From the NCBI GenBank assembly GCA_001314655.1, contig LJSF01000044.1:62001-126000 (forward strand): a stretch of DNA of 64,000 nt, written 5' to 3'. Shown here in pieces: positions 19,738 through 39,327 of the stretch; positions within the stretch are counted from its first letter, which is position 1; each line of letters begins with the position of its first letter. Below the pieces are notes generated by a model that was not told where the DNA came from, did not search any database, and was given only the letters and a program-made list of their open reading frames with translations. Made by a program: the position numbers and the translations under genes. This DNA comes from Rhodobacteraceae bacterium HLUCCA08 (GTDB taxonomy: Bacteria; Pseudomonadota; Alphaproteobacteria; Rhodobacterales; Rhodobacteraceae).

Positions 19738-19774
19738 GCTTGGTCCATCCCGGTCCAGGCAAAGGTGGTTTCAG

Positions 19775-20557
19775 GTGCGGTTGCTCGTCTTTACCGATCT
19801 CGACGGCACGCTTCTGGATCATGACAGCTACGATTTCACCCCGGCCCGTCCGGCGCTGGCGGCCCTGGCGGCGCGCGGGGTGCCGGTGATCCTGGCCTCG
19901 TCCAAGACCGCCGCCGAGATCGCGCCGCTGCAGGCCGCGCTGGGGCTGACCGGGCAGCCGGCGATCGTCGAGAACGGCGCCGCCCTGGCCGATGGCGCCA
20001 GCGATGACAGCGGCTGGCGGAGCATCCGCCAGGCGCTGGAAGAGCTGCCCCCGGCCCTGCGCGCGCCGTTTCGCGGTTTCGGCGACATGGACAGGGCCGA
20101 GGTTGCGAAAGTGACGGGATTGCCCCCGGATCAGGCCGCATTGGCCCGCCGCCGGCAGCATTCCGAACCGGGCCTGTGGACCGGCTCCGACGCCGCCCGC
20201 GCCGAATTCGAGGCCGCCCTGGCCGCCCGGGGCATCACCGCCCGCCGCGGCGGCCGGTTCCTGACCCTGTCCCATGGCGCCACCAAGGCCGACCGGATGG
20301 CCGAGCTGACCGCGCGGCTCGGGCCTGCCCACACGGTCGCCCTGGGCGACGCGCCCAATGATGCCGAGATGCTGCAGGCCGCCGATACCGGCATCATCGT
20401 CGCCAATCCGCACGGTCCCGGCCTGCCGCCCCTTCCGGGCGAGGCGACGGGCCGCATCCGCCGCACCGCCGACCCCGGACCTCTGGGCTGGAATACCGCC
20501 CTGCTCGACCTGTTGGCCGAGCTGTCCCCGCCACCAGAAAGGGCCCGCCATGGCTGA
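19775..20557 (+). CDS. gpgP: HAD-IIB phosphatase, probable glucosyl/mannosyl-3-phosphoglycerate phosphatase
   Basis: The enzyme removes phosphate from glucosyl- or mannosyl-3-phosphoglycerate. The 260-residue protein has the HAD motifs FTDLDGTLLDHD (nucleophile D8, acid D10), a conserved Thr/Ser in LASSKTAAEI, a Lys in HGATKADRM and the metal Asp in ALGDAPNDAEML. Translation starts at GTG 19775, where AAGGTGG lies upstream and VRLLVFTDLDG matches the family start. It overlaps the glycosyltransferase gene gpgS by eight bases, which fixes the substrate as the GpgS product by context rather than by motif. Confidence 0.85.
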   Translation: MRLLVFTDLDGTLLDHDSYDFTPARPALAALAARGVPVILASSKTAAEIAPLQAALGLTGQPAIVENGAALADGASDDSGWRSIRQALEELPPALRAPFRGFGDMDRAEVAKVTGLPPDQAALARRRQHSEPGLWTGSDAARAEFEAALAARGITARRGGRFLTLSHGATKADRMAELTARLGPAHTVALGDAPNDAEMLQAADTGIIVANPHGPGLPPLPGEATGRIRRTADPGPLGWNTALLDLLAELSPPPERARHG

Positions 20558-21770
20558 CTTCCACCAGAACGGCAATATCGCCCAGTTCCACAACCTGCGC
20601 ACCCGGTCGCTGGCCGAACTGGATTACGAGCTGGAAACCTTTGCCCAGACCCGCAAGATCAGCCTGGTCCTGCCCTCGCTCTATTCCGAGCTGGAGGGCG
20701 CGGCGCTGCCCGATATCCTGGCCGAACTGGCCCAGGTGAAATACCTGCACCGGATCATCATCGGGCTCGACCGCGCCGATGCGGCGCAATACGCCCATGC
20801 GCGACGGTTCTTTTCGGTCCTGCCGCAGGACCATGTGGTGATCTGGAACGACAGCCCGCGGATGCTGGACCTGGGCGCCCGGCTGGAGGCGCTGGGGCTG
20901 GCCCCGCAAGAGCCGGGCAAGGGCAAGAATGTCTGGTCCTGCATCGGCTACCTGATCGCCTGCGCCGACAGCGCGGTGATGGCGATCCACGATTGCGACA
21001 TCGTCACCTATCACCGCGAGATGCTGAGCCGGCTGGTCTATCCGGTCGCCCATCCGGGGTTTTCCTACCAGCTGTCCAAGGGATTCTATCCGCGCATCGG
21101 CAACAACAGGCTGGGCGGGCGGGTCACCCGCAATCTGGTCAGCCCGCTGCTGATCGCGCTGAAAAAGGTGATCGGGGATCGCGACTATATCGATTACCTG
21201 CGCGCCTTCCGCTATCCGCTGTCGGGCGAATTCGCCCTGCGCACCGGGCAATTGCCGGACCTGCGCATCCCTTCGGACTGGGGGCTGGAAATCGGCGTGC
21301 TGTCCGAGGTCTGGCGCAACCTGGGCCCGCGCGCGGTCTGCCAGGTCGAGATCAGCGATACCTATGACCACAAGCACCAGGACCTGTCCCCCGAGGATGC
21401 GGCGACGGGTCTGAACCGGATGTCGATGGATATCTGCAAGGCGATCTTCCGCAAGCTCGCCGCCGACGGCACGGTCTTTACCCCCAACGTGTTCCGCACC
21501 CTCAAGGCCACCTATTACCGCCGGGCGCTGGACATGCTGGATGTCTATTCCCACGACGCGGCGATGAACGGTCTGGCCTTCGATCGCCACGAAGAGGCCA
21601 AGTCGATCGCGCTTTTCGCCGAAAACATCATGACCGCGGGCCAGGTGTTCCTGGATACCCCGCACGAAACCCCCTTCATCCCGAACTGGAACCTGGTCCA
21701 TGCCGCCGACCCGGCGCTGCTGGCCGATTTCAAGGCCGCGGTGGCCGCGGACCAGGCCGATTACGCCTGA
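20550..21770 (+). CDS. gpgS: Glucosyl-3-phosphoglycerate synthase
   Basis: GpgS transfers glucose from a nucleotide sugar to 3-phosphoglycerate. The 406-residue protein has ISLVLPSLYSELEG near residue 36, GKGKNVWSC, the metal-binding AIHDCDIVTY and the downstream RIPSDWGLEIGVL and YDHKHQDLS segments, which I recognise from bacterial and archaeal GT81-type enzymes. Mannosyl-phosphoglycerate synthases (GT55) look different. It is coupled to the phosphatase gene and faces the GH13 phosphorylase gene at 22866, so a glucosylglycerate cycle is likely. The compound is known as a compatible solute under salt or nitrogen stress. Confidence 0.87.
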   Translation: MADFHQNGNIAQFHNLRTRSLAELDYELETFAQTRKISLVLPSLYSELEGAALPDILAELAQVKYLHRIIIGLDRADAAQYAHARRFFSVLPQDHVVIWNDSPRMLDLGARLEALGLAPQEPGKGKNVWSCIGYLIACADSAVMAIHDCDIVTYHREMLSRLVYPVAHPGFSYQLSKGFYPRIGNNRLGGRVTRNLVSPLLIALKKVIGDRDYIDYLRAFRYPLSGEFALRTGQLPDLRIPSDWGLEIGVLSEVWRNLGPRAVCQVEISDTYDHKHQDLSPEDAATGLNRMSMDICKAIFRKLAADGTVFTPNVFRTLKATYYRRALDMLDVYSHDAAMNGLAFDRHEEAKSIALFAENIMTAGQVFLDTPHETPFIPNWNLVHAADPALLADFKAAVAADQADYA

Positions 21771-21861
21771 GGATCGGACTCAACCCAAGATTGCATTTTC
21801 CTCAAGGGGAAACTCCCCTAAAACAAATCAATGTGGCCAAGGGGTGAGCCGGGGGGAAACA

Positions 21862-22302
21862 GTGCCGTATGAAACCCGTATCGACACGGCCTCAGCATGC
21901 GTTCTGTGCCGGTTCTTCGGGGCCGTGTCCACGACGGAATTCACCCGTGCCTTCACCAATTATACCGAACATCCCGGTTTCCGGCCCGACGCCGCGATCC
22001 TGACCGATGGCCGGCAGGCCGGCGCGCTTCCCATCAGCTACCGCGAAGTGGCGGCACAGGTGGCGCGCACGATGCCGGCCTTGTCGCGCCTGTCCCCCGA
22101 GGCGCGGATCATCCTGCTGGCGGAACGGGACGACCAGTTCGGGATGGCCCGGATGCTGCAACAGGTGCTGCACGCCGTCACCTCTGTCGCCGTCATCGTG
22201 ACCCGAAGCGAGCCCGACGCCCTGACCCGGGCGGGGTGCCCCGATCCGGACATCGCCGCGCTGGCCCGTCGCCTGGGCGACCCGGTGCTGTGTTCCGCTT
22301 GA
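21862..22302 (+). CDS. Small STAS/SpoIIAA-like protein, tandem copy 1
   Basis: The 146-residue protein starts at GTG (reading VPYETRID), preceded by a run of G and A that can serve as ribosome site. Its layout, with a beta-strand start, a central YREVAAQVARTMP helix and the RDDQFGMARMLQQV segment, resembles STAS/SpoIIAA-like small proteins of alphaproteobacteria; this is pattern resemblance, not a firm assignment. A paralogue follows at 22435 with the same PYE start, the same QFGMARML and the same AGCPDxDIAALA near the end. The gap before it (21771-21861) is AT-rich and is the likely promoter. Confidence 0.7.
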   Translation: MPYETRIDTASACVLCRFFGAVSTTEFTRAFTNYTEHPGFRPDAAILTDGRQAGALPISYREVAAQVARTMPALSRLSPEARIILLAERDDQFGMARMLQQVLHAVTSVAVIVTRSEPDALTRAGCPDPDIAALARRLGDPVLCSA

Positions 22303-22319
22303 CCGGGGGCCGACAACGC

Positions 22320-22341
22320 AGGGTCAGGTTCCCGTGACCCT
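22320..22341. terminator. Hairpin between tandem paralogues
   Basis: AGGGTCA-N8-TGACCCT gives a 7-bp stem with an 8-nt loop after the first copy. It has no T-run, so it may be an attenuator, a weak terminator or chance. Confidence 0.3.
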
Positions 22342-22434
22342 GACGGAGCGGATTGCACATTTCGGCAGCTTGGCCCTGCCCGCGCGGCACGACATAGTCG
22401 GAGGCGAAGACCCGGAAAAAAGATCGAGTGCCCT

Positions 22435-22860
22435 TTGCCTTACGAAATCCTGTCGTGCCCCGGAACCCCGGTCGCCCTGTTCCGCATGTGGGACAGGTTC
22501 AGCGCCGATGACGGCCTGGCCGCCTATGTCGATTACGTCTCTCGCGCCGATTACGACCCGTCCCGCACCATGTTGACCGATGCCGGCGCGGTGACCGGGA
22601 TTCCGGCCAATTACCGCCAGGTCGCGGTGCGCGTCGCGCGGCTGGCCCCGGTATTGGCGACGATCCCGGACGGCACCCGCAGCGTGATCCTGGCGCCGCG
22701 CGACCACCAGTTCGGAATGGCGCGGATGCTGGCCCAGGTCGCCGGGCATGTCACGCCGCTCGACATCCACGTCACCCGCGACGAAGTCGAGGCGCTGGTG
22801 CTGGCCGGCTGTCCCGACCGCGACATCGCCGCACTGGCGACCCGGCTGCGGCAGGGCTGA
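22435..22860 (+). CDS. Small STAS/SpoIIAA-like protein, tandem copy 2
   Basis: The 141-residue protein begins at TTG (LPYEILSC), a start supported by its alignment with the VPYE start of copy 1 and a purine run GGAAAAAAGATCGAG upstream. Shared blocks with copy 1 are NYRQVAVRVAR, HQFGMARML and AGCPDRDIAALATRL. The middle is more diverged, which suggests an old duplication. The pair lies between the glucosylglycerate genes and the convergent phosphorylase. Function unknown; a regulatory or scaffolding role would be a guess from fold only. Confidence 0.65.
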   Translation: MPYEILSCPGTPVALFRMWDRFSADDGLAAYVDYVSRADYDPSRTMLTDAGAVTGIPANYRQVAVRVARLAPVLATIPDGTRSVILAPRDHQFGMARMLAQVAGHVTPLDIHVTRDEVEALVLAGCPDRDIAALATRLRQG

Positions 22861-22865
22861 TCGGG

Positions 22866-24608
22866 TCAGCCCGTATTGGCGATCCAGCGGCATTGATAGG
22901 GCGCCAGCGCGATCGTGCCGTCGGCCTCGATCCGGTCGCCGCTCAGCAGGTCGTGCCAATCCTCGTCCTCGATCAGGTTCAGCTGCCAGGCCGGCATCTC
23001 GACCGGTTCGGCGCTGACGTTGTGCAGCGCGAAGATCGACTGGGTCCGGTCCAGCGCCTGGCGCCAGACGCCCAGGATCCGGTCATCAAGCTGCAGCGTG
23101 TGCTGGGTCGCGTTGGGGTGAAAGGCAGGCTGGCGGGCGCGCAGTTTCAGCCGCGTGGTCAGGATGCGCAGCACCACCGCCTGGTCGCTGTCGGGATCCT
23201 CCAGCAGCGCGCGCAGCTCCGGGTAATGCCAGCGGTGCCGGTTGATCGCCCGGTTCATCCCGCGCCGCGTGACCGCGTCGTGGTCATTGGGCGTCGCGGT
23301 CAGGGAATGGATGTAGAAGGCCGGCACGCCCTCCAGCGCCATCACCAGGGTCTGCGAACACAGGAACCGCGCCAGCTTGAGCGCCTCGTCGCCGGCATAA
23401 GTGCGCCCCATCGCGTCGAAATAGGCGCAATTCACCTCGTAGGGGGCCTCGCCGCCGCCGGGCAGGGCCCGCATCGACACCAGCCCGCCCGAGGCGCGCA
23501 CGCAGTCGATCATCCGTTCCAGCTCGTCCGCTGGCAGGATGCCCTCGACCGGCCGCATCCCGATCCCGTCATGCGAGGCGGTGAAGTTGAAATAGGCGCA
23601 GCCCAGCGGCGCCGGCGGCATGCCGCGCAGCCATTTGCGCAGGTAGGACACACCGCCCGACAGCATCGCGTGCAGCACCAGCGGCGGCAGCGGGAAATTG
23701 TAGACCATATGGGCCTCGTCCCGGCTGCCGAAATAGCTCAGGTTCTCGGCCTTGGGGACGTTGGTTTCGGTGATCAGCACCACCTCTTCGGTGGCGAAAT
23801 CCATCAACAGGCGCATCAGCTTGACGATCGCATGGGTCTGCGGCAGGTGGATCGAGGGGGTGCCGGCCTGTTTCCAGACGAAGGCCACCGCATCCAGCCG
23901 GATCACCCGCACGCCCTGGTCGATATGCAGCCGCAGGATCGACAGGATTTCCAGCAGCACCTCGGGGTTGCGGAAATCCAGGTCGACCTGGTCATGGCTG
24001 AAGGTGCACCAGACATGGCGCCGGCCCATCGCCGTGTCGACCTCCTGCAGCAACGGCGTGGTGCGCGGGCGGACCACGGCGGACAGGTCGTCGGCGGGGT
24101 CGGCCTCCATGAAGAACCGGTCATAGGGCGCCTGGCCCTGGCGATAGGCGTTGAACCACGCGCCTTGCGAGCTGACATGGTTCAGCACCATGTCCGACAT
24201 CAGCCGCATCCGGTCGCCGATCCGCCGGATATCGGGCCAGTCGCCCATGGCCGGGTTCACCTTGCGGTAATCGGTCACGGCAAAGCCATCGTCCGAGGTG
24301 AAGGGAAAGAACGGCAGCACATGCACGCCGTTGACCGCCCCGGCCAGGTCGCGGTCGAGGAAATCCAGCAGCAGATCCAGCGGCTTGTGCTGCCCGTCGG
24401 TCAGTGAATTGCCATAGGTGATGACCAGCGCATCGGCCTGCGACCACAGGTTGTTGGAGGGCCGGCGCGGGCGCCGCCGGCGCGGCCGGTCCTCGGGCCA
24501 GAAGGCCGCGACGACCCGCTCGATCAGGTCGACCACGTCCTCCTGCGGATAGAGAAAGGCCAAGAGGTCGGTCAGGCGGGCGGCGAGCGCCGCGGGCAAT
24601 TGGGTCAT
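22866..24608 (-). CDS. GH13 subfamily 18 phosphorylase, probable glucosylglycerate phosphorylase
   Basis: This 580-residue enzyme is a sucrose-phosphorylase-like GH13 protein: NSLTDGQHKPLDLLLDFL, HVLPFFPFTSDDGFAV, the nucleophile Asp in VIRLDAVAFVWK, the acid Glu in VLITETNVP and a late NDHDAVTRRGMNR. GH13_18 includes sucrose, glucosylglycerol and glucosylglycerate phosphorylases. The neighbouring gpgS and gpgP make glucosylglycerate, so phosphorolysis of that solute to glucose-1-phosphate and glycerate is the best guess. Sucrose phosphorylase remains possible. It is convergent with the STAS-like pair, with a 5-bp gap. Confidence 0.82.
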   Translation of the reverse strand: MTQLPAALAARLTDLLAFLYPQEDVVDLIERVVAAFWPEDRPRRRRPRRPSNNLWSQADALVITYGNSLTDGQHKPLDLLLDFLDRDLAGAVNGVHVLPFFPFTSDDGFAVTDYRKVNPAMGDWPDIRRIGDRMRLMSDMVLNHVSSQGAWFNAYRQGQAPYDRFFMEADPADDLSAVVRPRTTPLLQEVDTAMGRRHVWCTFSHDQVDLDFRNPEVLLEILSILRLHIDQGVRVIRLDAVAFVWKQAGTPSIHLPQTHAIVKLMRLLMDFATEEVVLITETNVPKAENLSYFGSRDEAHMVYNFPLPPLVLHAMLSGGVSYLRKWLRGMPPAPLGCAYFNFTASHDGIGMRPVEGILPADELERMIDCVRASGGLVSMRALPGGGEAPYEVNCAYFDAMGRTYAGDEALKLARFLCSQTLVMALEGVPAFYIHSLTATPNDHDAVTRRGMNRAINRHRWHYPELRALLEDPDSDQAVVLRILTTRLKLRARQPAFHPNATQHTLQLDDRILGVWRQALDRTQSIFALHNVSAEPVEMPAWQLNLIEDEDWHDLLSGDRIEADGTIALAPYQCRWIANTG

Positions 24609-24836: not shown

Positions 24837-25124
24837 GTGTCCGGTGATGTGTGCCATTATTCGATGCCGCCGGTGCGGGCCGGCTCCGGCCCTGCCGAAT
24901 TGACCGATTTCCTCAAGGCGGCCGATGGCGCCGCGGTCGAGATCGACCTGTCCGCGCTGGATTTTCCCGACACCGCCCGGCTGCAGATCCTGCTGGCCGC
25001 GGCCCGGCACTGGCGCGACCAGGGCGACGGGTTCCGGACGATCAACGCATCGCCGGGGTTCCTGGCCGGGCTGGGCCAGGCCGGGCTGGGCCCCGAAGAC
25101 ATAGCGACGGAGGTGACCCAATGA
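24837..25124 (+). CDS. STAS-domain protein heading the che operon (CheS-like)
   Basis: The 95-residue protein is a single STAS domain (VEIDLSALDFPDTARLQILLAAA) of the STAS_2 type. Translation starts at GTG 24837 with AGGAGG nine bases upstream. Many alphaproteobacterial che operons begin with such a small protein; in Sinorhizobium the corresponding protein CheS binds CheA and helps drain phosphate from CheY1. Orthology to CheS is an inference from operon position. The stop overlaps cheY1 by four bases. Confidence 0.82.
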   Translation: MSGDVCHYSMPPVRAGSGPAELTDFLKAADGAAVEIDLSALDFPDTARLQILLAAARHWRDQGDGFRTINASPGFLAGLGQAGLGPEDIATEVTQ

Positions 25125-25495
25125 CCACCAGGGTTCTGGCCATAGATGATTCGCGGACCATCCGTGACCTGCTTCGGCTGTCGCTGGAAAGCGCCGGCTT
25201 CGAATATCACTGCGCCGAGGATGGCCGGATCGGCGTCGACATGTTCGCGCAGGTCGATCCCGATGTGGTGATCACCGACATCAACATGCCCAATCTGGAC
25301 GGCTATGGCGTGATCGACGAATTGCGCCGCGGCCCGGCCCGGACCCGGGTGCCGATCCTGGTGCTGACCACCGAAAGCTCGGACGCGCTCAAGGCCCGCG
25401 CCCGCGACGCCGGGGCGACCGGCTGGATCGTCAAGCCGTTCGACGACGATTCGCTCATCTCGGTGCTGCGGCGCCTGACCGGATATGGGGGCTGA
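25121..25495 (+). CDS. cheY: CheY1-type single-domain response regulator
   Basis: The 124-residue protein is a lone receiver domain with all active-site residues: acidic pair D9/D10, phosphorylation site D53 (ITDINMP), Thr in VLTTES and K105 (VKPFD). It starts within the stop of the STAS gene and precedes cheA by four bases. In related operons this first CheY acts as phosphate sink while the second drives the motor; which does what here cannot be seen. Confidence 0.93.
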   Translation: MTTRVLAIDDSRTIRDLLRLSLESAGFEYHCAEDGRIGVDMFAQVDPDVVITDINMPNLDGYGVIDELRRGPARTRVPILVLTTESSDALKARARDAGATGWIVKPFDDDSLISVLRRLTGYGG

Positions 25496-25499
25496 CCAG

Positions 25500-27659
25500 A
25501 TGTCGATGCAGGATATCCGCGACACGTTCTTCCAGGAATGCGAAGACCTTCTGGAAGCGATGAACGAAGGGCTGGGCGTCATGGATGCCGGCGAGTGGGA
25601 TGCCGACACGGTCAATGCCGTGTTCCGCGCGGTCCATTCGATCAAGGGCGGCGCCGGTGCTTTCGGCCTGGCCGACCTGGTGGCCTTCGCCCATACCTTC
25701 GAAACGGTGTTCGACGAGGTGCGCGCTGACCGGCTGCCGGTCACGCCCGACCTGGTGCAGGTCTTTCTGCGCGCCGGCGACCAGCTGGCCAACCTGGTCG
25801 AGGCCGCCCGTGACGAGGTGCAGGCCGATCCGGGCCCGGTCGACGCCGCGCTGACCGCGCTCGAAGCCTTTCTCGAGGGTGACACCGCGGCGCCCGCCGA
25901 ACCGGATGCGCCCGCCTTCGAACCCGCACCCCTGAGCTTCGAGCCGATGGGTCTGGAGCTGGATCTCGAGGCCGGTCCGCCCGCGCCACTGGACGAAACC
26001 TTCGTCATCCGGTTCCGCCCGATGCGCGCCCTGGTGGACAACGGACACGAACCGCTGCGGCTGCTGTCCGCCCTGGCCGCGCTTGGCGACACGCAGGTCA
26101 CGGTGGATCTGGACGATCTGCCCGCGTTCGAACGGCTCGATCCGGAGGAGGCCTATCTGGCCTGGACGATCGTGCTGACCACCCCACGCGGCCGGCCGGC
26201 GATCGACGAGGTCTTCGAATTCGTCGAAGGGCTCTGCACCCTCGAGATCGAGGCGAATGATGCCGCGCCGGCGCCAGAGGTCACCTCGGACCAGGTCGCC
26301 TTTTCGTCGCAACGCGCCGCCGCCCCCGCCGCCCCCGCGCCAGAGCAATCCGCGCCCCCGCCCGATCCCGAACCCGGTCCTGCCGCCGCCACCGCAGCCG
26401 CAGCACCGGCCCCGGCGGCGCCCAAGGCGCCGGCCCCGGCGCGTCCGACCCTGCGGGTCGAACTGGACCGGGTCGACCGGCTGATCAACACCGTGGGCGA
26501 GCTGATCATCAACCAGGCAATGCTGTCCCAGCGCGTGGCCGAGCTCGACCTGCCCTCGGGCGCCGATATCGAAGTCGAACTGGAGGATTACAAGCACCTC
26601 GCCCGCGAGATCCAGGAAGGCGTGATGGCGATCCGCGCCCAGCCGGTCAAGCCGCTGTTCCAGCGCATGGCCCGGATCGTGCGCGAGGCCTGCGGCGCCA
26701 CCGGCAAGACCGCCCGGCTGGTCACCGTGGGCGAAAACACCGAGGTCGACAAGACCGTCATCGAAAGCCTGTCGGACCCGCTCACCCATATCATCCGCAA
26801 CGCGGTCGATCACGGGCTCGAACCGGCCGACAGGCGCGCGGCCGCCGGCAAACCGGCCGAAGGCGTGATCCGCCTGGCCGCGGCGCAGCGTTCGGGCAGC
26901 ATCTTCATCGAGGTGTCGGACGATGGCGGCGGCCTCAACCGGCCGCGGATCTACGACATTGCCGTCAGCAAGGGCCTGATCCCGGCGGGCGCCGAACTGA
27001 CCGATACCGAAATCGACAACCTGCTGTTCCTGCCCGGTTTTTCGACCGCCGACCAGGTGTCGAACCTGTCCGGGCGCGGCGTCGGGATGGACGTGGTGCG
27101 GACCGCGATCCAGGGCCTGGGCGGGCGCATCCTGATCGCCTCCGAACCCGGCCGCGGGACGACGATGACCATCGTCCTGCCGCTCACCCTGGCGGTGATG
27201 GACGGCATGGTCGTGTCGGTCGCCGAGCAGACCATGGTCGTGCCGATCGCCCCGGTGCAGGAAACCATCCGCCCGACCGATGGCGATATCCACATCCTCG
27301 GCGCCGGCGATTTCGTGCTTCAGGTTCGCGGCCGGTTCATCCCGATCGTCGATGTCGCCGCCTGTCTCGGCGCCGCCGCGGCGACGCATGCGATGAAAGA
27401 CAAGGTGCTGATCCTGGTCGAAACCGAACAGCGCGGCCTGGTCGCCATGGCGCTGGATGCGATCCACGACCAGCGCCAGGTGGTGATCAAGAGCCTCGAA
27501 GGCTCTTACGGAACCATCCCCGGCATCTCGGCCGCCACGATTCTGGGCGACGGCAAGATCGCCCTCATCCTCGACCCCGACGGGATCGCCCAGCTCGGCA
27601 ATGCCGGCTCGGACCCGCTTGTTCCGACCCCCCAGCTGCAGGAGGCCCTTCATGGCTGA
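25500..27659 (+). CDS. cheA: CheA, chemotaxis histidine kinase
   Basis: CheA autophosphorylates on receptor signals and passes phosphate to CheY. The 719-residue protein has an N-terminal HPt domain with H46 (VHSIKGGAGAFG), a P2-like region about 165-245, an Ala/Pro linker about 269-316, a dimerisation part, and an HATPase domain with N-box IIRNAVDHG, G1 DDGGGL and G2 GRGVGMDVV. The C-terminal CheW-like domain runs from about 560. The ATG at 25500 (MSMQDIRDTF) fits HPt starts; an ATG at 25485 would overlap cheY1. Confidence 0.94.
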   Translation: MSMQDIRDTFFQECEDLLEAMNEGLGVMDAGEWDADTVNAVFRAVHSIKGGAGAFGLADLVAFAHTFETVFDEVRADRLPVTPDLVQVFLRAGDQLANLVEAARDEVQADPGPVDAALTALEAFLEGDTAAPAEPDAPAFEPAPLSFEPMGLELDLEAGPPAPLDETFVIRFRPMRALVDNGHEPLRLLSALAALGDTQVTVDLDDLPAFERLDPEEAYLAWTIVLTTPRGRPAIDEVFEFVEGLCTLEIEANDAAPAPEVTSDQVAFSSQRAAAPAAPAPEQSAPPPDPEPGPAAATAAAAPAPAAPKAPAPARPTLRVELDRVDRLINTVGELIINQAMLSQRVAELDLPSGADIEVELEDYKHLAREIQEGVMAIRAQPVKPLFQRMARIVREACGATGKTARLVTVGENTEVDKTVIESLSDPLTHIIRNAVDHGLEPADRRAAAGKPAEGVIRLAAAQRSGSIFIEVSDDGGGLNRPRIYDIAVSKGLIPAGAELTDTEIDNLLFLPGFSTADQVSNLSGRGVGMDVVRTAIQGLGGRILIASEPGRGTTMTIVLPLTLAVMDGMVVSVAEQTMVVPIAPVQETIRPTDGDIHILGAGDFVLQVRGRFIPIVDVAACLGAAAATHAMKDKVLILVETEQRGLVAMALDAIHDQRQVVIKSLEGSYGTIPGISAATILGDGKIALILDPDGIAQLGNAGSDPLVPTPQLQEALHG

Positions 27660-28119
27660 CGAAACCCCCGACCTGCCCGCCCCGACCGAGCGGGAATACA
27701 TCACCTTCACCGTCGCCGACCAGCATTACTGCCTCGACATCCAGCAGATCCGGGAAATCCGCCGCTGGACGCCGGTCACGCCGCTGCCCCATGCCGCCCA
27801 TGGCGTGCTTGGGGTGATGAACCTGCGCGGCGCAGTGATCCCGATCTATGACATGGCCGCGCGGCTGGGCCTGGGCGACACCCAGCCCAGCGAACGCGAC
27901 GTGGTGATCGTCGCCGCGCTGGACAGCACCTCGATCGGGTTGCTGGTCGAATCCGTCTGCGAAATCCTGACGGTCAAGACCGACGAGATCCAGCCGACCC
28001 CGGATGTGCGCTCGGACGCCACGCGCGAGGCGATCCGCGGGGTCATCGCCATGGACGGACAGATGACCCGGATCCTCGAGCTGGGCTTCATCGCCGACAG
28101 ATCGCCGGTCGCCGCATGA
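27652..28119 (+). CDS. cheW: CheW, chemotaxis coupling protein
   Basis: CheW links CheA to receptors. The 155-residue protein is a CheW fold from about residue 15, with YITFTVADQHYCLDIQQIREI and the conserved GVLGVMNLRGAVIPIYD. It overlaps cheA by eight bases and GGAGG precedes the ATG. The C-terminus overlaps the cheR start by four bases. Confidence 0.95.
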   Translation: MADETPDLPAPTEREYITFTVADQHYCLDIQQIREIRRWTPVTPLPHAAHGVLGVMNLRGAVIPIYDMAARLGLGDTQPSERDVVIVAALDSTSIGLLVESVCEILTVKTDEIQPTPDVRSDATREAIRGVIAMDGQMTRILELGFIADRSPVAA

Positions 28120-29015
28120 CAGCGCCCGGCCTTGCCGCCACGTCACCGGCGGGTCGCGACTATCCGCTGACCGATGCGGATTTCGCGGCGATCGCGCGGC
28201 TGGCCCGGGATGCGTTCGGCCTGGCGCTGGCCGATGGCAAGCGCACGCTGGTCTATTCCCGCCTGGCCCGCCGGCTGCGGGCCCTCGGGCTCGAGGATTT
28301 TTCTGCCTATGTCGCACTGTTGAACGGGCCGGACTGGGTCCAGGAACGCACGGCGTTTCTGAGCGCGCTGACCACCAACACGACGCATTTCTTCCGCGAG
28401 GCGCATCACTTCGACCTGTTGCGGACCCGCTTGCTGCCGCCCTTGATCGATCGGGCCCGGACCGGCGGTCGGGTGCGGATCTGGTCGGCGGGCTGTTCGA
28501 CCGGGCAGGAACCCTATTCGATCGCCATGACCCTGCGCGAGCTGTGCCCCGAAATCGGCCGCCACGACTTGCGCATCCTGGCCACCGATATCGACCCCAG
28601 GGTCATCGCCACCGCCCGTGCCGCCAACTTTCCCGTCGACGAGGTCATGCCCCTGCCGGCCGAGCTGCGGGACCGGCATTTCAGGCCCGCCGGGGCCGGG
28701 GGTGGCTACCGGATCGACCCCGATACCGCCGCTCTGGTGACCTTCGGCGTGCTCAACCTGATCGAACCGCTGCCGTTCGGGGGGCCGTTCGACATCATCT
28801 TCTGCCGCAATGTGGTGATCTATTTCGACGCCGAGACGCGCGACCAGGTCTGGGCCGCCTTCGGCACCGTCCTGGCCGCCGAGGGCGCCTTGATCCTGGG
28901 CCATTCGGAACGCCTGACCGGCCCCGCGGCGGCCGGATTCCAGTCCATCGGCGTCACCGCCTATGCCCGCCACCCGGGCTCTGAACCTTCACCGAAACAG
29001 GGAACAATGCCATGA
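28116..29015 (+). CDS. cheR: CheR, chemoreceptor glutamate methyltransferase
   Basis: CheR methylates glutamates on chemoreceptors to adapt signalling. The 299-residue protein has an N-terminal helical domain and a SAM-binding domain with IWSAGCSTGQEPYSIAM, ILATDIDPRVI and FDIIFCRNVVIYFD. Its neighbour receptor ends in a WxxF pentapeptide, which in other systems docks to CheR. It overlaps cheY2 by four bases. Confidence 0.94.
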   Translation: MTAPGLAATSPAGRDYPLTDADFAAIARLARDAFGLALADGKRTLVYSRLARRLRALGLEDFSAYVALLNGPDWVQERTAFLSALTTNTTHFFREAHHFDLLRTRLLPPLIDRARTGGRVRIWSAGCSTGQEPYSIAMTLRELCPEIGRHDLRILATDIDPRVIATARAANFPVDEVMPLPAELRDRHFRPAGAGGGYRIDPDTAALVTFGVLNLIEPLPFGGPFDIIFCRNVVIYFDAETRDQVWAAFGTVLAAEGALILGHSERLTGPAAAGFQSIGVTAYARHPGSEPSPKQGTMP

Positions 29016-29398
29016 GCCTCAAGGACAGCCTGCGCGTCATGGTGGTGGACGACATGTCGACCAGCCGGGCGATCATCACCAACACGCTGGACGAGATCGG
29101 CATCACCAACAACGTCGCCGAAGCCGATCCGAAACAGGCCCTGGCCAAGCTGGTCGGCAACCCGGTTCACCTGGTCCTGTCGGATTTCAACATGCCGGGC
29201 ATGGACGGGCTGGGCCTGCTTCAGGCGCTGCGCCAGAACCGGTCGACCGCGCGGATCGGGTTCATCCTCGTCACCGGCCGGGCCACGCCCGAAATCATCC
29301 AGCAGGGCCAGAAGCTGGGCCTGAACAACCTGATCGAAAAGCCGTTCACCCCGCAAAAGATGAAGGCCTGCATCGAGCGCGTCGTCGGACGGCTGTGA
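29012..29398 (+). CDS. cheY: CheY2-type single-domain response regulator
   Basis: The 128-residue receiver has D13/D14, phosphorylation site D58 (LSDFNMPGMDG) and K110 (IEKPF). The Thr in VTGRAT replaces the more common Thr/Ser spacing but is present. It overlaps cheR and sits 7 bases before the small CheZ/CheT-like gene. Its length and sequence around D58 differ from CheY1, so the two are unlikely to be redundant. Confidence 0.93.
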   Translation: MSLKDSLRVMVVDDMSTSRAIITNTLDEIGITNNVAEADPKQALAKLVGNPVHLVLSDFNMPGMDGLGLLQALRQNRSTARIGFILVTGRATPEIIQQGQKLGLNNLIEKPFTPQKMKACIERVVGRL

Positions 29399-29405
29399 GG
29401 GCACC

Positions 29406-29771
29406 ATGACCGCCGAAATCCACACCGTCGACGAGGTGATCCTGCGGCTGGCCGATGAACTGCGCCGCGCCGGTGGTGATCTCAAGGCGCTCGAAGGCGC
29501 CACGGTCACCGCCCTGCGCGAGGCCGGTCAGCCGTTTTCATCCGACCTGCTGGGCGCGCTGCAGAATTTCGACATGCTGCTGCAGACGATGGACGCGGTC
29601 GCAGGCTTTCTCGACGATATCGCCGCCGCCCTGCCTGACGGGATCGAGATCGAGATCGGCCATGCCTTCCGCCGTATTCCGCTGCTTGATCTGATGCACC
29701 GGTTGCGCCCGGGCGGCGCCCCGCCCGGGACGGCCGGCCCGATCGCGGGTTCCGACCCGGTGCTGTTCTGA
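29406..29771 (+). CDS. Small helical chemotaxis protein with CheZ-like DxxxQ motif (CheT-like)
   Basis: The 121-residue protein is predicted helical. Its middle reads LLGALQNFDMLLQTMDAVAG (49-68), with D56 and Q60 in a DxxxQ spacing, the catalytic pair of CheZ, where the corresponding stretch is QDFxDLTGQ. The context fits as well: it directly follows cheY2 in a che operon that has no cheZ, cheC or cheX. Small proteins in the same operon position in alphaproteobacteria (CheT) have been linked to CheY dephosphorylation; family membership here is an inference. The C-terminus ends in SDPVLF after a flexible Gly/Pro stretch. GAGGG precedes the ATG. Confidence 0.75.
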   Translation: MTAEIHTVDEVILRLADELRRAGGDLKALEGATVTALREAGQPFSSDLLGALQNFDMLLQTMDAVAGFLDDIAAALPDGIEIEIGHAFRRIPLLDLMHRLRPGGAPPGTAGPIAGSDPVLF

Positions 29772-29849
29772 TCCGCCCCGATTAACCCGATCTTGAAAGT
29801 CCGCCTGCTAGATCGACCCCACCTGCCGCGTTCCGATCACGAGGTTCCG

Positions 29850-32261
29850 ATGAAACGTCTGTCCGATATTCGCCTGGCCACCAAGGGCCCCTTGCTCATG
29901 GTCTGCCTGATCCTCGCGGTCGGGCTTGTCGTCTCGGCGATCAGCTTCGTCGGGTTCAAGCGCACGATCATGACCAATTCGATCTCCGAATTCGGCGCGC
30001 TCTCCGAAGCCCGGCACACCGGGCTGAACCGGATCTTCGACGACTTCAACGCCGACCTGCAGGTTCTCGCGCAATTTCCGTCGACGGCCGAGGCGATCGA
30101 GCGGTTCACATCCACCCGCGCCCTGCTCGAGGATCCGGACAGCGAATTGCGGCGTGGCTATGTCGACGACAACCCCCACCCGGCCGGCGAACGGCACCTG
30201 CTGGAGCGCGCGCCCGAGATTTCGCCCTACAACAGCGCCCATGAACGCTTTCACCCGGGGTTCACCCATTTCCTGCAGCAGCGGGGGTTTTACGACATCT
30301 TCCTGTTCGATCTGGATGGAAACCTTGTCTATACCGTCACGAAAGAGGACGATTTCGCGACCAATTTCCGAACCGGGCCACATTCGGAGAGTGGCCTGGG
30401 CCGCGCTTTTCGCGACGCGCTGGACAGCGCACCGGGCGACATCAGCTTCGCGAATTTCGATCCCTACGCGCCCAGCAACGGCGACCAGGCGGCGTTCATC
30501 TCGACACAGGTCCACAACCGGTCCGGCGACCTGGTCGGCGTGATCGCCTTACAGCTTCCGATCGATGCCCTGGATACGCTGACCGGTTACACCGTCGGCA
30601 TGGGCGAAACCGGCCAGTCCTACCTGGTCGACGATACCGGTATCCTGCGCAGCAATTCGCGCTTCGAAGGCGGCTTTCGCATCGGTGATCCCCTGCCCGC
30701 GCACAGTTTCCTTGCCGGTCAGGACATTTCCGAAGGCCAGGTCCATACCGATGCCACCGGCATCGACGGCGCGCCGGTCATCGCCTTCACCCATGTCACG
30801 GAGGTCCATGGCAAGCGCTGGACCTTCGTGGTCGAAAAGCACATCGCGGAAATCCTTGCTCCGGTGGTCGCGCTGCGCAACACGCTGCTGGTGGTGATCC
30901 CGCTGTTCACGGCGCTGGCGGCGGTGCTGGGCTGGGTCGCAGTGCGCGGCGTGACCGGCCAGATCAAGGCGCTGGGCACGCAGATGCGCCGCATCGCCGA
31001 CGGCGATTTCGCGACCGATATCCCGGCTGTGACGCGCGGCGACGAGATCGGCGATATCGGCCGTGAACTGGAACGGTTCCGCGACAGCCTGGCCGAGGCC
31101 GAGGATCAGCGCGCCGAACGCCGCAAGCGCGACGCGGCCCGGGCGATGGTCATGACAGAGCTGGGCGCCGCGCTCGACCGGCTCTCCTCGGGCGACCTGA
31201 CCCGCGGGATCGACACCGATTTCCCGGAGGATTACCAAGACCTGCGCGCCGATTTCAACCGCACGGTCGAAAGCCTGCGCCATGTCATCGAACAGGTCGT
31301 CGAGGCCGCCGAACGGATCCGCAGCGGCGCGGCGGAAATCTCGACCGCGTCGGACGACCTGTCGGGCCGGACCGAAACCCAGGCCGCGACACTGGAACAG
31401 ACCGCCGCGGCGCTGGAGCAGATGACGGCTTCGGTCCGCGCCTCGGCCGACCATGCCCGTTCGGTCAACGACCAGGTCGCCCGCGCCCGGGACGAAGCCG
31501 AACGGTCGGGCGAAATAGTCGAGAACACGGTGACGGCGATGGGCGCGATCGAGGCCAGTTCGACCCGGATCTCGCAGATCATCTCGGTGATCGACGACAT
31601 CGCCTTCCAGACCAACCTGCTGGCGCTCAATGCCGGGGTCGAGGCCGCGCGCGCCGGCGAGGCCGGCAAGGGCTTTGCCGTCGTCGCCTCGGAAGTGCGT
31701 GCCCTTGCCCAGCGCAGTTCCGAAGCCGCGCTCGAGATCAAGGAGCTGATCGGAACTTCGGCAACCCAGGTCGCCGAGGGCGTCGACCTTGTCGGGCGCA
31801 CCGGCGCCACGCTGCGCGACATCGCCGGCAAGGTCCGGGACATTTCGGACCTGGTCAACGCGATCACCAGCGGCGTGGAAGAGCAGAGCACCGGTCTGGG
31901 CGAAATCAACGACGGGGTCAGCCAGCTTGACCAGGTCACCCAGCAGAACGCTGCAATGGTCGAACAATCGACCGCCGCCGGGCACATGCTGAAATCCGAC
32001 GCCGCCGGCCTCGCCGACCTCATGGGGGCCTTCAAACTGGCCGCCGGGGTGCCGCGCGATCTGGCCGGGCCGACCCCGGCGGTTCCGGACGCCGCCGCCC
32101 CGGATGTGGCCGGGGTCGAGGCTGCCGACCCCGGTCCGGTCCAGGACCAGCCCGGATCAGTCGACCTGACCGGCCACCTGGACGACGACGTGATCCCGGT
32201 CGTCGCCCTGACCGGCACCGACGACCTGCCCGACCAGACCGGCATCTGGAAGGATTTCTGA
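29850..32261 (+). CDS. Methyl-accepting chemotaxis protein, membrane-bound, Cache-type sensor
   Basis: The 803-residue receptor has a membrane segment at residues 14-34, a periplasmic Cache-type sensing domain (about 40-320, with [16 protein letters not shown] and [14 protein letters not shown]), a second membrane segment (about 350-372), HAMP-type linkers and a signalling hairpin with the tip sequence [23 protein letters not shown] (I write only part of this conserved tip here). It ends in TGIWKDF, matching the xWxxF pentapeptide that tethers CheR or CheB. I chose the ATG at 29850 where GAGG precedes it. The ligand is unknown. Confidence 0.92.
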
Positions 32262-32294: not shown

Positions 32295-33305
32295 ATGCCC
32301 CGCCTGACAGCCCGCCTCCTTGTCGCGATGCCGGACGGCCCGCTGCGCGCCTGGACGCAGGCGGCACTGGCCGCGGCGCCGGGACTGGAGCTGCACCACG
32401 CCCGGACCCTGCGCGAGGCCTATAACCTGACCGAAGAGGTCGAGCCCCGCGCCGCATTGGTGGCCGGCGCGATGGCCGCACTTCCGGAGTTCAACGCGTT
32501 GCGGATGTTGTTCGATGCGATCGGCCTGCGCTGGATGACGGTCTCGGATCCGGTCGGCGCCGGGCAGGGCCCCGGCCTGCGCCCGACGCCGGCCGGCGAC
32601 CCCTTTCTGGACCGGATCTCGGCGCTGTTGCGGTCCGGGTCGACCACCGGCGCGCCAGGCCCGCGGTCCACCGAACGGAGCGTCGCCGGTCGACCGGGCG
32701 CCGCACCGCAGGGCAGCGTCGGACGCACGGTCCTGATCGGGGCCTCCACCGGCGGGATCGAGGCCCTGCTGACCATCCTGCGCAACTTTCCCGCCGCCTG
32801 CCCGCCCACGGTCATCACCCAGCATACCGGCTTGGGCTATGGCGCGTCGCTGGCCGACCTGCTGGATCGCAACTGCGCCGCGCGTGTCGTACCTGCGAGC
32901 GAAAGCCTGCAGATCGGCCCCGGCCAGATCGTGCTGGCCGGCGGAACCGGACGACATTTCGAGCTGGAGCCGGACGGGCGGCGTGGCCGGCTTACCGGAT
33001 CGCAGCCGGTCTGCGGCCATTGCCCCTCGGTCGATGTCATGTTCCGCTCGGCGCTGCCGATCGCGCAACGCGCCGTGGGCGTGCTGCTGACCGGCATGGG
33101 CGACGATGGCGCCGCCGCACTGCTGGAACTGCGCCGCGCCGGCGCCCGCACCCTGGGCCAGGACGAAGCCAGCTCGGTCGTCTACGGGATGCCGCGCGCG
33201 GCCGCCCGGATCGGCGCCCTGACCCGCCAGGCCGCGCTCGAGGCGCTGGGCCCGGCGATCCTGTCCGATGCCGCGGCGCCGGTCGACGGGAGGCAAGCGT
33301 CATGA
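32295..33305 (+). CDS. cheB: CheB methylesterase with degenerate receiver domain
   Basis: CheB removes methyl groups from receptors. The 336-residue protein has an intact catalytic domain: S151 (GASTGG), H177 (TQHTG) and D270 (TGMGDDG). The N-terminal 115 residues occupy the receiver position but lack its pocket: the acidic pair is replaced by LLVAMPDG and the phosphorylated Asp by LVAGAM. So phosphorylation by CheA is not expected. A Gly/Ser/Pro/Arg-rich linker (about 114-142) joins the parts. It overlaps cheD by four bases. Confidence 0.88.
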   Translation: MPRLTARLLVAMPDGPLRAWTQAALAAAPGLELHHARTLREAYNLTEEVEPRAALVAGAMAALPEFNALRMLFDAIGLRWMTVSDPVGAGQGPGLRPTPAGDPFLDRISALLRSGSTTGAPGPRSTERSVAGRPGAAPQGSVGRTVLIGASTGGIEALLTILRNFPAACPPTVITQHTGLGYGASLADLLDRNCAARVVPASESLQIGPGQIVLAGGTGRHFELEPDGRRGRLTGSQPVCGHCPSVDVMFRSALPIAQRAVGVLLTGMGDDGAAALLELRRAGARTLGQDEASSVVYGMPRAAARIGALTRQAALEALGPAILSDAAAPVDGRQAS

Positions 33306-33835
33306 CCGCCCCGATCGCCGCAGCGCGCCAGGTGACCGTCATCCAGGGCGAATTCCACGTCTCGGACGAGCCCGGATTGGTGCAAAGCACCTTGTTGGGC
33401 TCTTGCGTTTCGGTCTGCCTGCATGATCCCGCGGCAGGGGTCGGCGGCCTCAATCATTTCCTGCTGCCCGACCGGGTCGGCACCGATACCGCGACGCTCA
33501 AACACGGCACCAATGCGATGGAGCTGTTGATCAACGGGTTGCTGCGCATGGGGGGACACCGCGACCGGCTGGTGGCCAAGGTGTTCGGCGGCAGCCGCAT
33601 GTCCGACGCCTTCCAGGATATCGGGGCGTCCAACATCGACTTCGCGCGCCGATTCCTCAAGGCCGAGTCGATCCCCTGCCTGTCCGAGGACGTGGGCGGG
33701 ACCCTGGCGCGCCGGATCCGATTCGTGCCGGCCACCGGCCAGGCGCAGGTCATGCGGGTCCCGCGCGCCGAAGCGCCGGCCGAACGGATGCCGCCGCCGG
33801 TCGCCGCCGCCCCCGAGACGATCACCCTGTTCTGA
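33302..33835 (+). CDS. cheD: CheD, chemoreceptor glutamine deamidase
   Basis: CheD deamidates specific receptor glutamines. The 177-residue protein has the catalytic Cys in LLGSCVSVCLHD (C35) and the His in GGLNHFLLP (H52), with KVFGG downstream. A Pro/Ala-rich tail ends in ETITLF. It is the last gene of the che operon; the 188 bases after it hold no gene. Confidence 0.93.
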   Translation: MTAPIAAARQVTVIQGEFHVSDEPGLVQSTLLGSCVSVCLHDPAAGVGGLNHFLLPDRVGTDTATLKHGTNAMELLINGLLRMGGHRDRLVAKVFGGSRMSDAFQDIGASNIDFARRFLKAESIPCLSEDVGGTLARRIRFVPATGQAQVMRVPRAEAPAERMPPPVAAAPETITLF

Positions 33836-34023
33836 CCCCTTGCGGGTCCGGCCCGCCCGTCGCCCCCGCGGACCACACGGTCCCCCGCCCGGTTCGCGGT
33901 GCCGCGGCGCCGTCCAGATGCCATGACCGATCGCCCCGCGGACCAGCATCGTCATGACAGCGTCATGCCTGGCTGCGAGGGTCGCGCGCGATGCTGTTGT
34001 GCAACGACACCCCGGGGGATCCG

Positions 34024-37000
34024 ATGTCAGACCGAATGACCATGCCGCAGTTCGACGGCCTGTCCGCCTATCGCGCCTATCTGCAGGGGTCCACCCTGCT
34101 GTCATCGGGCGGGTTTGCGCCGGGCCGCAACGCCCCGATCCGCGGCGGGCGCGACGATGATGAATTGCAGGGCGGCGACGGCAATGACCGGATGTTCGGC
34201 CTGGGCGGGGATGACGAAATCCTTGCCGGAGGCGGCAATGACAGGGTTTTCGGCGGCCGCGGCGACGACACCGCCGATGGCGGCGCCGGCAACGACAGCC
34301 TGTTCGGCGGCCAGGGCGACGACCTGCTGAAAGGCGGCGCCGGTTTCGACCTGCTCGATGGCGGGCGCGGCACCGACACCGCCGCCTATGACGGCTCGAT
34401 CACCGGCTACCGCTACATTCCCTGGGTCGGCGACCGCGGTTTTGTGGTGAACCTGGCCACGGGCGAGGTCGATTACCTGCGCAGCATCGAGAAACTGCAA
34501 TTCGACGACCAGACGGTCTGGCTTGACGGCCGCAACAACGGCCCGCTGGGCGTGGATGACACCGCCACGACCGACGAAGATACCGCCCTGGCCGTCAATG
34601 CCGCCGATCTGCTGGCCAACGATTACGATTTCGACGGCGACGCGCTGAACATCACGGCGGTCGCGCCGACATCCGCCAACGGCATCGCCGTGGGCTTTGA
34701 CGGCCGCACGATCAGCTATGACCCGGCCGGAGCCTATGACCATCTGGCCGACGGCGAAACCGCGACCGACACGATCACCTACACGGTCGACGACGGGCGC
34801 GGCGGCACCGATACCGCGACCCTGACGGTCACGATCGAGGGCCGCAACGACGCCCCGGTCCTGACCCTTCCGGCCAGCGCGACGACGCCCGAAAACGCGA
34901 CAGGTCCGGTGGCGACGGCCAGCGCGACCGATGCCGAGGGCGATACGCTCAGCTTCACCCTGTCGGGCGCCGATGCCGCGCTGTTCACGATCGGCGCCAC
35001 GGGCGAAATCGCCTTTGCCGCGGCGCCGGATTTCGAGAACCCCGGCGATGCGGATGGCGACAATGCCTACGACCTGACCGTCACGGTCGCGGACGGGAAG
35101 GGCGGCAGCGCCAGCGACGACCTGACCGTCACCGTCACCGATGTGGCCGAAGCCAGCGTCGCGATTTCGGAAATCATGTTCAACCCGGCCTCGGCCGAGG
35201 ACGACTGGGAATGGGTCGAGATCGTCAATACCGGCGCCACCACGCTGGACCTGACCGGCTGGGTCTTCGACGACATCAACGGCCTGGCCCAGGACGGCGC
35301 CAATATCGCCGGCGGCAGCATCTCTGCGGGCGGTTCGGCCATCCTCTACAATGCCGATGACATCAGCGCGGCCGATTTCGAGGCCGCCTGGGGCACCGGC
35401 ATCACCCTGATCGGCGTCACCGGCTGGGGCGCCGCGGCGCTCAACAACGGCGGCGACACGCTGGGCCTGTGGAACAGTTTCGCCGCCTATCAGGGCGATC
35501 ACACCACCCATGCCGAGGCGGTGATCAGCGTCACCTATGACGGCAGCCTCGATGACGGCGCGGGCTCGATCTACCTGACCGATCTGGCCGCCGACCCCGA
35601 TGATTTCGCCAATTGGGCCCTGTCCACGGTCGACGGCGCGACGCCGGTCAATACCGGCGAACGCTCGCGCCCCGAGGGCGGCAATTCGGGCAATGATGTC
35701 GGCTCTCCCGGCGGGGCGATCCCGGCCGGCGACGTGAAGATCAACGAATTCCGCCCCAACCCGCAGGGCTTCGACCCCTTCACCAGCACGATCGAGCTGT
35801 CCGGCAATCCCGGCGGCGTCTTCACCGGCTGGATCCTGTCGATCGAGGGCGACGGGCCGGCAGGCGCCGGTTTCGTCGACCGGGCCGAGCAGGTCTCGGG
35901 CACCTTCGATGCCGATGGCCTGCTGACCGTGCAGATCGCCGATCTGGAAAACCCGACCTTCACCCTGGTTCTGACCGACGCCTTCACCGGCGACACCTCG
36001 ACCCGGATCGACAGCGACGGCGACGGCGTGGCCGACGACCTGTCGACCCTCGGCACCGTGTTCGACGCGATCGGCGTTCCCGACAGCGTCGCGGACGAGG
36101 CCTATCTTTATGGCGCCCAGCTGGGCGGCACCGACTTCGCCTTTACCGGGGACGAGCCGCGCCTGGTGTTCCGCGACGGCACCACCGGCGATCTCTACGC
36201 CGTCAACGACCCCGACAACGGCGACGTCCATGATACCGCCGGCAATGTCATCGACCCGGCCGAGTTCGACATCGACCCGACCGCCGGAAGCGATACCTTC
36301 GGCGCGCAGAACCCCTCGCGCCTGGGCGCCCCCGCCCCGGCCCTGGTGCTGAACGAGATCGCAGCCAGCACCGCCGGCACCGATTGGGAATTCGTCGAGC
36401 TTCTGGGCGACGCCGGCCTGTCGCTGGACGGGGTCGCGCTGCTTCAGCTTGACGGCGATGGCGCGGTGCGCTCGGTGCTTGACTTCACCGGGCTGAGCCT
36501 GGGCGACAACGGCTATGCGCTCGCCACCAGTCCGACCGCCGAACAGGTCTTCGGCCTGACCGGCGACCTGCAATTCGGCGACAACACCTTCACCAACACC
36601 GCCTCGACCTTCCTGCTGGTCGAGGGCTATTCGGGCGTTGCGCAATTCACCGACCTCGATACCGACGATGACGGCGTGCTCGACGTGACCCCCTTCGCCT
36701 CTGTGATCGACGCGGTCGCGCTGACCGATACGGGCAGCCCGCTGATCTATGAGGGCGCGGCCGTGGTCGGCCCCGATGGCAGCTTCCTGCCCGCCGGCGC
36801 GGTGCGGCTGCCCGAGGGCAGCGGCGACTGGCAGATCACCGATTTCGGGGACAGCGACAGCTACACCCCCACCGCCGCCAGCGCCGGTGCGCAACTGGTG
36901 ATCAACGAGATCGACAGCGACACGCCCGGCACCGATGCCGCCGAATTCATCGAGCTGTTCGATGGCGGCGCGGGCGGCACCGCGCTGGACGGTCTGTCGC

Positions 37001-39327
37001 TGGTGCTGTTCAACGGCAATGGCGACACCGCCTATGACGTGATCGACCTGACCGGCTTCAGCACCGACGAGAACGGCTATTTCGTCGCCGGCTCGGCCGA
37101 TGTGGCCAATGTCGACCTGGTCGCCTTCACCACCAACGGGCTGCAGAACGGCGCCGATGCGGTGGCGCTGGTGCAGGGCGATGCCGCCGCGCTGTCGGGC
37201 ATCGCCGCGGCCGATCTGGACCCGGCCAGCGTGCTGGATGCGGTGGTCTATGGCACCGCCGACCCCGACGATGCCGAGCTTCTGGCCGCCTTCGGCGAGA
37301 CCATTCAGGTCGACGAGGATGCCAATGGCGACAAGGACACCCAATCCCTGTCGCGCCTGCCCAATGGCGAGGGCGATTTCACCGCCCAGGCCCCGACCCC
37401 GGGTGCCGCAAATGACGCCGGCGGAACCGAGCCGGGCACGCCCACGCTGATCTCGGCGATCCAGGGCAGCGGCGCGGACAGCCCGCTGGCTGGCCAGACC
37501 GTCACCGTCACCGCCATCGTCACCGGCGATTTCCAGGACGGCGACGCCGACACCCTGCGCGACCTGCGCGGCTTCTTCCTGACCGAGGAAGCCGCCGACC
37601 AGGACGGCGATGCGGCGACGTCGGAAGGGTTGCGGGTGTTCGAAGGCACCGGCACTTTCCTGACCGATGTGAATATCGGCGACCGGGTCACCGTCACCGG
37701 CACGGTCACGGAATATTTCGGCGAAACCCAGCTGAACGCCACCAGCGTGGAGCTGGTCGAGGCCGGCGCGGTGGCGGATGTCATGAGCCTTGCCGTCAGC
37801 CTAAGCCTCGATGCGATCGACGCGGTGACCACCAGCCAGGACGGCGATTACATCCCCGACCTGGAGGCCTACGAGGGGATGCTGGTCACCTTCACCGACA
37901 CGCTGACCGTGGCCGAGATGTTCCAGATGGACCGGTTCAACGAAATCGGCCTGTCGGCCAATGGCCGGCCGCAGCAATATACCCAGTTCGCCGAACCGGA
38001 CGTGGCCGGCTATGAGTCCTATCTGCGGCAGACCGGGTCGGACCGGATCTTTTTCGATGACGGGCTGAACCGGCAGAACGCCGCGATCCTGCCCGAGGCC
38101 GATCTGAACGGCGATGGTGTCTTCGACACCGCCGACGGGTTCAGCATGGGCGACACGATCACCGGTCTGACCGGCGTGCTGACCTATGACTGGGCCGGCA
38201 ATTCCGCCTCGGGCGCGACCTGGCGGGTGCGGTCGGTCGATGACGGCAATGTGTTCGAAGACACCGGCACGCGGCCGGACACGCCCCCCGATGTCGGCGG
38301 CAGCATCACCGTGACCAGCTTCAACGTGCTGAACTTCTTCACCACCCTGGTCGGCGAAGGCACATCGGGCCCCGGCGGCCTCAATCCGCGCGGCGCCAAC
38401 ACGGTCGAGGAATACGAACGCCAGCTTGACAAGCTGGTCACGACCCTGACCGCGATCGACGCCGACCTTTTTGGCCTGGTCGAGCTGGAGAACGAATTCC
38501 AGACCGACCAGAACGGCGACGGAGAGGTGGCGATCCAGTCCCTGGTCGACGCGATGAACGCCGAATACGGCAGCATCGTCTGGGATTACGTCGATCCCGG
38601 CCGGCCCTTCGTCGATACCTCCGACGCGATCTCGGTCGGGATGATCTATCGCACCGACACGCTGGCCTATGACCCGGCCTCGGTCCGGATCCTCGATGAC
38701 AGCCAGCTTGACGGGCTGGGATTCGGGGCGCTGGACGATGACGGGCTGGGCGTGTTCGACGGGCCCAGCACCAACCGTGCGCCAATGGCCGCCACCTTTA
38801 CCGACCCGTTCACCGGCGAGGATTTCACCTTTGCCGTGACGCATATGAAATCCAAGGGCGGCTCGGGCACCGGCGACAATGCCGATGCCGGCGACGGCGC
38901 GGGCAATTTCGACGCGCTGCGGACCGAAGGGGTGACGGTGCTGAACGCCTGGCTTGACAGCTTTGCGGACGAGGACGTGCTGGTCGTGGGCGATTTCAAC
39001 GCCTATGCGCAGGAAAACCCGATCGATGCCATGCTGGCGGCGGGCTATGCCAACCTCGAACAGGTGTTCGATCCCGGATCCGACAGCTTCGTCTTCGACG
39101 GCTATACCGGCACGCTGGATTACGGCTTCGCCAATGACACGCTGATGGACAAGGTCACCGGTGCGGCGATCTGGGAAATCAACTCGCCCGAACCGGATGC
39201 GATCGATTACAACCTCGATTTCGGGCGCGATCCGGCGATCTTCGACGGCGATACCGTCTGGCGCGCCTCGGACCACGATCCGCTGCTGATCGGGTTGGAC
39301 TTCCTGCCCGATCTGGAGCTTGCCTGA
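34024..39327 (+). CDS. ExeM/NucH-type extracellular nuclease with RTX repeats and lamin-tail domains
   Basis: The 1767-residue protein is a secreted DNase-like enzyme. Order of parts: N-terminal RTX calcium-binding repeats (about 42-115, e.g. [16 protein letters not shown]), cadherin/VCBS-type beta domains (about 180-375), four lamin-tail-like units (near 379, 571, 774 and 958), an OB-fold segment (about 1141) and an endonuclease/exonuclease/phosphatase domain (1428-1765) with [22 protein letters not shown] and SDHDPLLIG. There is no cleavable signal peptide, so type I secretion is likely. RTX repeats at the N-terminus instead of the C-terminus are unusual. Start 34024 follows GGGGGAT; an ATG at 33991 would add 11 residues. 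Confidence 0.88.

Follow-up and report, generated by a model that had tools for sequence, protein, structure and literature searches.

Results

Within the window, as we call the whole 64,000-nucleotide stretch analysed here (positions 62,001 to 126,000 of contig LJSF01000044.1 from Rhodobacteraceae bacterium HLUCCA08), lies a chemotaxis cluster in the order cheS-cheY1-cheA-cheW-cheR-cheY2-ORF-mcp-cheB-cheD, with every gene on the forward strand. The CheY1, CheY2 and CheS assignments rest on the che locus of S. meliloti, with which the cluster was compared. The first gene (24837 to 25124) encodes a CheS-like STAS-domain protein (Pfam STAS_2) with 32% identity over 69 residues to the product of the S. 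meliloti cheS position, and the second (25121 to 25495) a CheY1-type response regulator, CheYa, that is 55% identical to S. meliloti CheY1 and 34% to CheY2. Pfam identified cheA (25485 to 27659), the only CheA gene that an H-kinase_dim search recovers from the genome, cheW (27601 to 28119, the true start being probably further downstream) and cheR (28116 to 29015). The CheY2-type regulator that follows, CheYb (29012 to 29398), is 46% identical to S. meliloti CheY2 and 33% to CheY1, and its best match in the PDB is S. meliloti CheY2 (1p6q, E 4e-33). Seven nucleotides separate its stop codon from an open reading frame at 29406 to 29771 (ATG at 29406, TGA ending at 29771), whose translation has 121 residues and which is the subject of this report. 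Downstream come an mcp gene (29793 to 32261, likely start ATG 29850), the translation of which ends in the pentapeptide IWKDF, then cheB (32295 to 33305, an ORF with 38% identity to S. meliloti CheB) and cheD (33290 to 33835, recognised by the NCBIfam CheD models), whose product ends in TITLF.

The surroundings of the che operon were named by eye. At 19343 to 24608 one gene encodes a phosphatase of the HAD type that resembles mannosyl/glucosyl-3-phosphoglycerate phosphatase, another a glycosyltransferase-like protein and a third an enzyme like the GH13 sucrose phosphorylases, which suggests a compatible-solute cluster. The adjacent small proteins at 21700 to 22302 and 22435 to 22860 resemble tandem paralogues, sharing MPYE/VPYE...YREVA/YRQVA...DQFGMARML...AGCPD.DIAALA. 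On the other side, a large protein at 33991 to 39327 combines glycine-rich repeats of RTX-like type and lamin-tail-like repeats with an endonuclease/exonuclease-like domain at its C-terminus and is probably a secreted nuclease.

The small protein had been singled out in a sequence-only reading for a CheZ-type DxxxQ motif, and the residue count indeed places D56 and Q60 in LQNFDMLLQ, at exactly the spacing of the CheZ catalytic pair. The same reading had described it as helical and much smaller than CheZ, and both points held: it has 121 residues against 214, and its AlphaFold2 model, made with 66 homologues (pLDDT 89.5), is a hairpin of helices 8-40 and 46-75 with the DxxxQ in the second helix, followed by a short helix and a disordered tail. 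The operon was also correctly said to lack cheZ, cheC and cheX. This extends to the genome, in which Pfam CheZ (PF04344) has no match and CheC and CheX have only weak matches below cut-off; the ORF protein itself matches none of the three.

A DxxxQ by itself is weak evidence, because shuffling this protein yields one in 25% of cases. We therefore considered its conservation. A scan of the genome contigs with the single sequence returned no homologues, since the family diverges fast, and the NCBIfam CheT model, run against 240 genomes of the class, recovered no genome but the source genome itself; a family profile was therefore built from 19 sequences that the ORF had retrieved. Of 395 genomes of the family, 141 have homologues that match this profile. 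Across 108 homologues, S. meliloti and other rhizobia included, Q53, D56 and Q60 are the sole invariant residues of the core (108 of 108); the next best core positions vary, and mean column identity is about 28%. The extended motif QxxDxxxQ (29562 to 29585) arises in 0.4% of shuffles, and its spacing of i, i+3 and i+7 lines the three residues up along the same side of the second helix. When up to about 17 kb were retrieved around 100 profile matches, nearly all of the loci had the gene directly 3' of a CheY2-type cheY or, in the rhizobial arrangement, of cheY2-cheD. Three of these (L142, L145 and L150) have the order mcp-cheD-cheY-cheA-cheW-cheR-cheY-cheT, which matches that of R. sphaeroides cheOp1, where a hidden CheT may be present. 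A search of the PLSDB plasmids gave no match with CheT as query; with CheY2 as query, it succeeded.

The homologues had been chosen by a profile that contains the motif, and 30 profile-negative genomes were therefore searched for a CheY2-type cheY. It was missing altogether from 28. The remaining two each carry, directly 3' of this gene, a small ORF with QxxDxxxQ, in one case as FQALDRMQQ in a protein ending in NLTLF and in the other as GQKYDFAIQ in a protein ending in TVQLF; the motif appears in 2-3% of shuffles of these two proteins. Since both cheY-bearing genomes have the ORF, the slot after the CheY2-type cheY is filled wherever that gene exists in the sample of 30. A genome of the same genus as ours has neither the CheY2-type cheY nor CheT, so that chemotaxis was apparently gained or lost within the genus. 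Invariance of the three residues together with the two profile-independent cases raises the motif above chance. The frequency of DxxxQ in shuffles and the low identities between single sequences could have been read as the mark of an unrelated small che-operon protein with a coincidental motif; the conservation of the motif already refutes that idea, the homology to CheT described below speaks against it as well, and we give it next to no credence.

The only curated family that matches the ORF protein is NCBIfam NF047973 (CheT, CtxProtCheTAlpha), with an E value of 9.6e-7 and 28.9 bits. The equivalog cut-off of this model, 200 bits, is not reached, whereas S. meliloti CheT scores 227.3 bits. 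Tested one by one, 46 of the 66 family members reach E <= 0.01 against this model. BLASTP aligns the ORF protein with S. meliloti CheT at E 5e-8 (24% identity over 107 residues) and superposes D56 and Q60 on the only DxxxQ of that protein, and hhalign of the family profile against S. meliloti CheT returns a probability of 96.6%. The kinship with CheT that the sequence-only reading had raised is thus that of a true but divergent homologue with the DxxxQ at the homologous position and, given 28.9 against 200 bits, it falls outside the curated equivalog. The two proteins are alike in being helical and about 120 residues long, with homology spanning residues 7-103, in having LQxxDxxxQ and a tail ending in Phe, and in belonging to che clusters with CheS, CheY1, CheY2 and CheD and without CheZ. 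They differ in that the gene in the window directly follows cheY2, with cheD elsewhere in the cluster, and in their tails, for which the Rhodobacterales consensus is [DE][VI][ED]LF as against DFEAF or DFDFF. S. meliloti CheT, described only recently, carries a DXXXQ motif and is reported to enhance the dephosphorylation of only one of its two CheYs and to form a complex with CheR as well (PMC12654446). In Ruegeria sp. TM1040 (WP_011536822.1) and Phaeobacter inhibens (WP_014881834.1) the homologues have LQDFDLxxQ and are annotated as hypothetical.

We also considered whether the protein is a true CheZ that has been minimised. Common to both are a DxxxQ with the same spacing on a hairpin helix, this pair being either convergent or too diverged to tell, and a linker leading to a C-terminal Phe (E. 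coli CheZ ends in DSLGF). However, beside the empty Pfam search of the genome, CheZ is not among the matches listed for any of 66 family members (the best 25 of 32 weak families), and hhalign against E. coli CheZ gives a probability of 1.1% with the DxxxQ unaligned. In CheZ, AxxF(Y)Q directly precedes the catalytic D (PMC7750401). This element is absent from the ORF protein, which has ALQNF before D56, and the Q at -1 of CheZ contrasts with the invariant Q at -3 of the present family. Foldseek with the monomer model retrieved neither CheZ nor any significant match from the PDB (best E > 0.6), which carries little weight for so short a hairpin. CheZ folds as a long dimeric four-helix bundle, and the model here is the hairpin of a monomer. 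Altogether no sequence relation is detectable and no fold relation emerged from the PDB search with the monomer model, a CheZ identity was rejected, and we regard descent from CheZ by reduction as very improbable. Other candidates were discarded as well: WXG100 proteins and further generic hairpins appear as Foldseek matches only, at E > 0.6, and the designed and coiled-coil proteins returned by a profile search of PDB sequences were not accepted as relatives. An artificial read-through fusion of CheY2 and CheT, made to look for docking, folded with no confident interface and an unordered tail (pTM 0.56, tail pLDDT 36), and Foldseek recovered only CheY with this model.

The C-terminus shows a second conserved feature. 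The tail of the ORF protein, DPVLF (29754 to 29768), disordered in the model, follows the family consensus G-[DE]-[VI]-[ED]-L-F only weakly. In the retrieved loci 72 of 100 CheT homologues end in Phe, preceded in 71 by Leu or some other hydrophobic residue. CheD ends in hydrophobic-Phe in 62 of 69 cases in related loci, where xWxx[FY] closes 42 of 47 receptors and a terminal Phe occurs in only 0 to 3% of CheS, CheY1, CheA, CheW, CheR, CheY2 and CheB. The CheD tail (33818 to 33832 in the window; loci L139-L238) is strongly conserved as [DE][IV]x[LF]F, with the consensus [DE]-[IV]-[TE]-L-F, and is near-identical to that of CheT. Among 80 rhizobial loci, CheT mostly ends in DFEAF or DFDFF (consensus D-F-[ED]-x-F) and CheD in SIEFF or TIEFF (consensus [ST]-[IV]-E-F-F). 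The pentapeptide by which receptors bind CheR needs aromatic residues as its second and fifth members, the remainder being mostly acidic (PMC7390727), a pattern that the rhizobial CheT tails match. Some lineages lack the tail and keep the motif (among them L151, L152 and Phaeobacter inhibens), which makes the tail accessory.

Discussion

Altogether, our analysis makes it probable that the ORF at 29406 to 29771 encodes a divergent CheT, a small auxiliary phosphatase built as a helical hairpin that would end the chemotaxis signal, with an activity predicted from the motif and from the work on S. meliloti CheT. The mechanism may be pictured by analogy with CheZ, in which a glutamine orients the water. 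The second helix would hold D56 and Q60 against the active site of phosphorylated CheY; Q60 would position the attacking water while D56 would contact the conserved CheY lysine, and the loss of the phosphoryl group would thereby be speeded. The Phe tail on its disordered linker would probably dock the protein to a partner. As to which regulator is the substrate, we lean slightly towards the CheY1-type protein, on account of the S. meliloti precedent, in which the primary CheT study is said to have identified CheY1~P as the substrate; the CheY2-type protein remains a close second, since its gene adjoins that of CheT.

One must consider, however, that CheT may have a main role other than phosphatase activity, because its effect on CheY1~P decay in that study was reportedly modest, about two-fold, and because the S. 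meliloti protein is reported to bind CheR. The invariant motif might just as well denote a surface for binding. On such a scheme the CheT homologue would be mainly a scaffold that binds CheR, and perhaps activated CheY, and so couples adaptation with the signal state, its QxxDxxxQ face serving as a binding surface with little catalysis. The CheR complex formed by S. meliloti CheT (PMC12654446) fits this idea, as do the likeness of the conserved Phe tail to the receptor pentapeptide, strictest in rhizobia, and the presence of three invariant residues on one helix face where CheZ has only a pair. Against it stand the exact CheZ spacing of D and Q, the lineages that lost the tail and yet keep the motif, and the accelerated decay of CheY~P that is reported for S. 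meliloti CheT (PMC12654446). We therefore hold a mainly scaffolding role to be unlikely and favour the auxiliary phosphatase.

The acidic-aliphatic-x-Leu-Phe ending common to CheT and CheD, with the joint consensus [DE]-[IV]-[EDT]-L-F in Rhodobacterales, is a candidate docking peptide. Like the x-W-x-x-F of receptors, it is acidic in character, has a hydrophobic residue in second place and ends in Phe. We speculate, and only tentatively, that this shared peptide may tether both proteins to the adaptation machinery, through CheR or CheB, or to CheY and so couple signal termination physically to adaptation across Alphaproteobacteria. Docking to CheY is an alternative to consider because E. coli CheZ also ends in Phe.

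CheZ is missing from many bacteria. CheC, CheX and FliY are likewise CheY phosphatases, with an ExxN motif and a different fold. To our knowledge, the way in which the chemotaxis signal ends in Rhodobacterales is mostly unexplained outside R. sphaeroides. In that species the CheA3 phosphatase is another alphaproteobacterial answer to the lack of CheZ (PMC6829392); it is part of a split CheA, unlike the one ordinary CheA of the present genome. CheT as a kind of protein is already known, and an NCBI model exists. What is added here is its extension to Rhodobacterales, the recognition of Q53 as a further invariant residue beside D56 and Q60, and the tail common to CheT and CheD; literature searches, with most subscription journals outside their scope, returned no account of CheT in Rhodobacterales or of a CheT/CheD tail.

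Our results suggest that a CheZ-like "off switch", to this day labelled hypothetical, is common among chemotactic Rhodobacterales. Indeed, the slot was filled wherever a CheY2-type cheY was examined, yet its product bears that label in Ruegeria sp. TM1040 and Phaeobacter inhibens. The tail common to CheT and CheD offers a concrete way into the CheT-CheR complex that has been reported, and the name CheT would carry a protein studied by experiment in rhizobia over to a marine order that is abundant.
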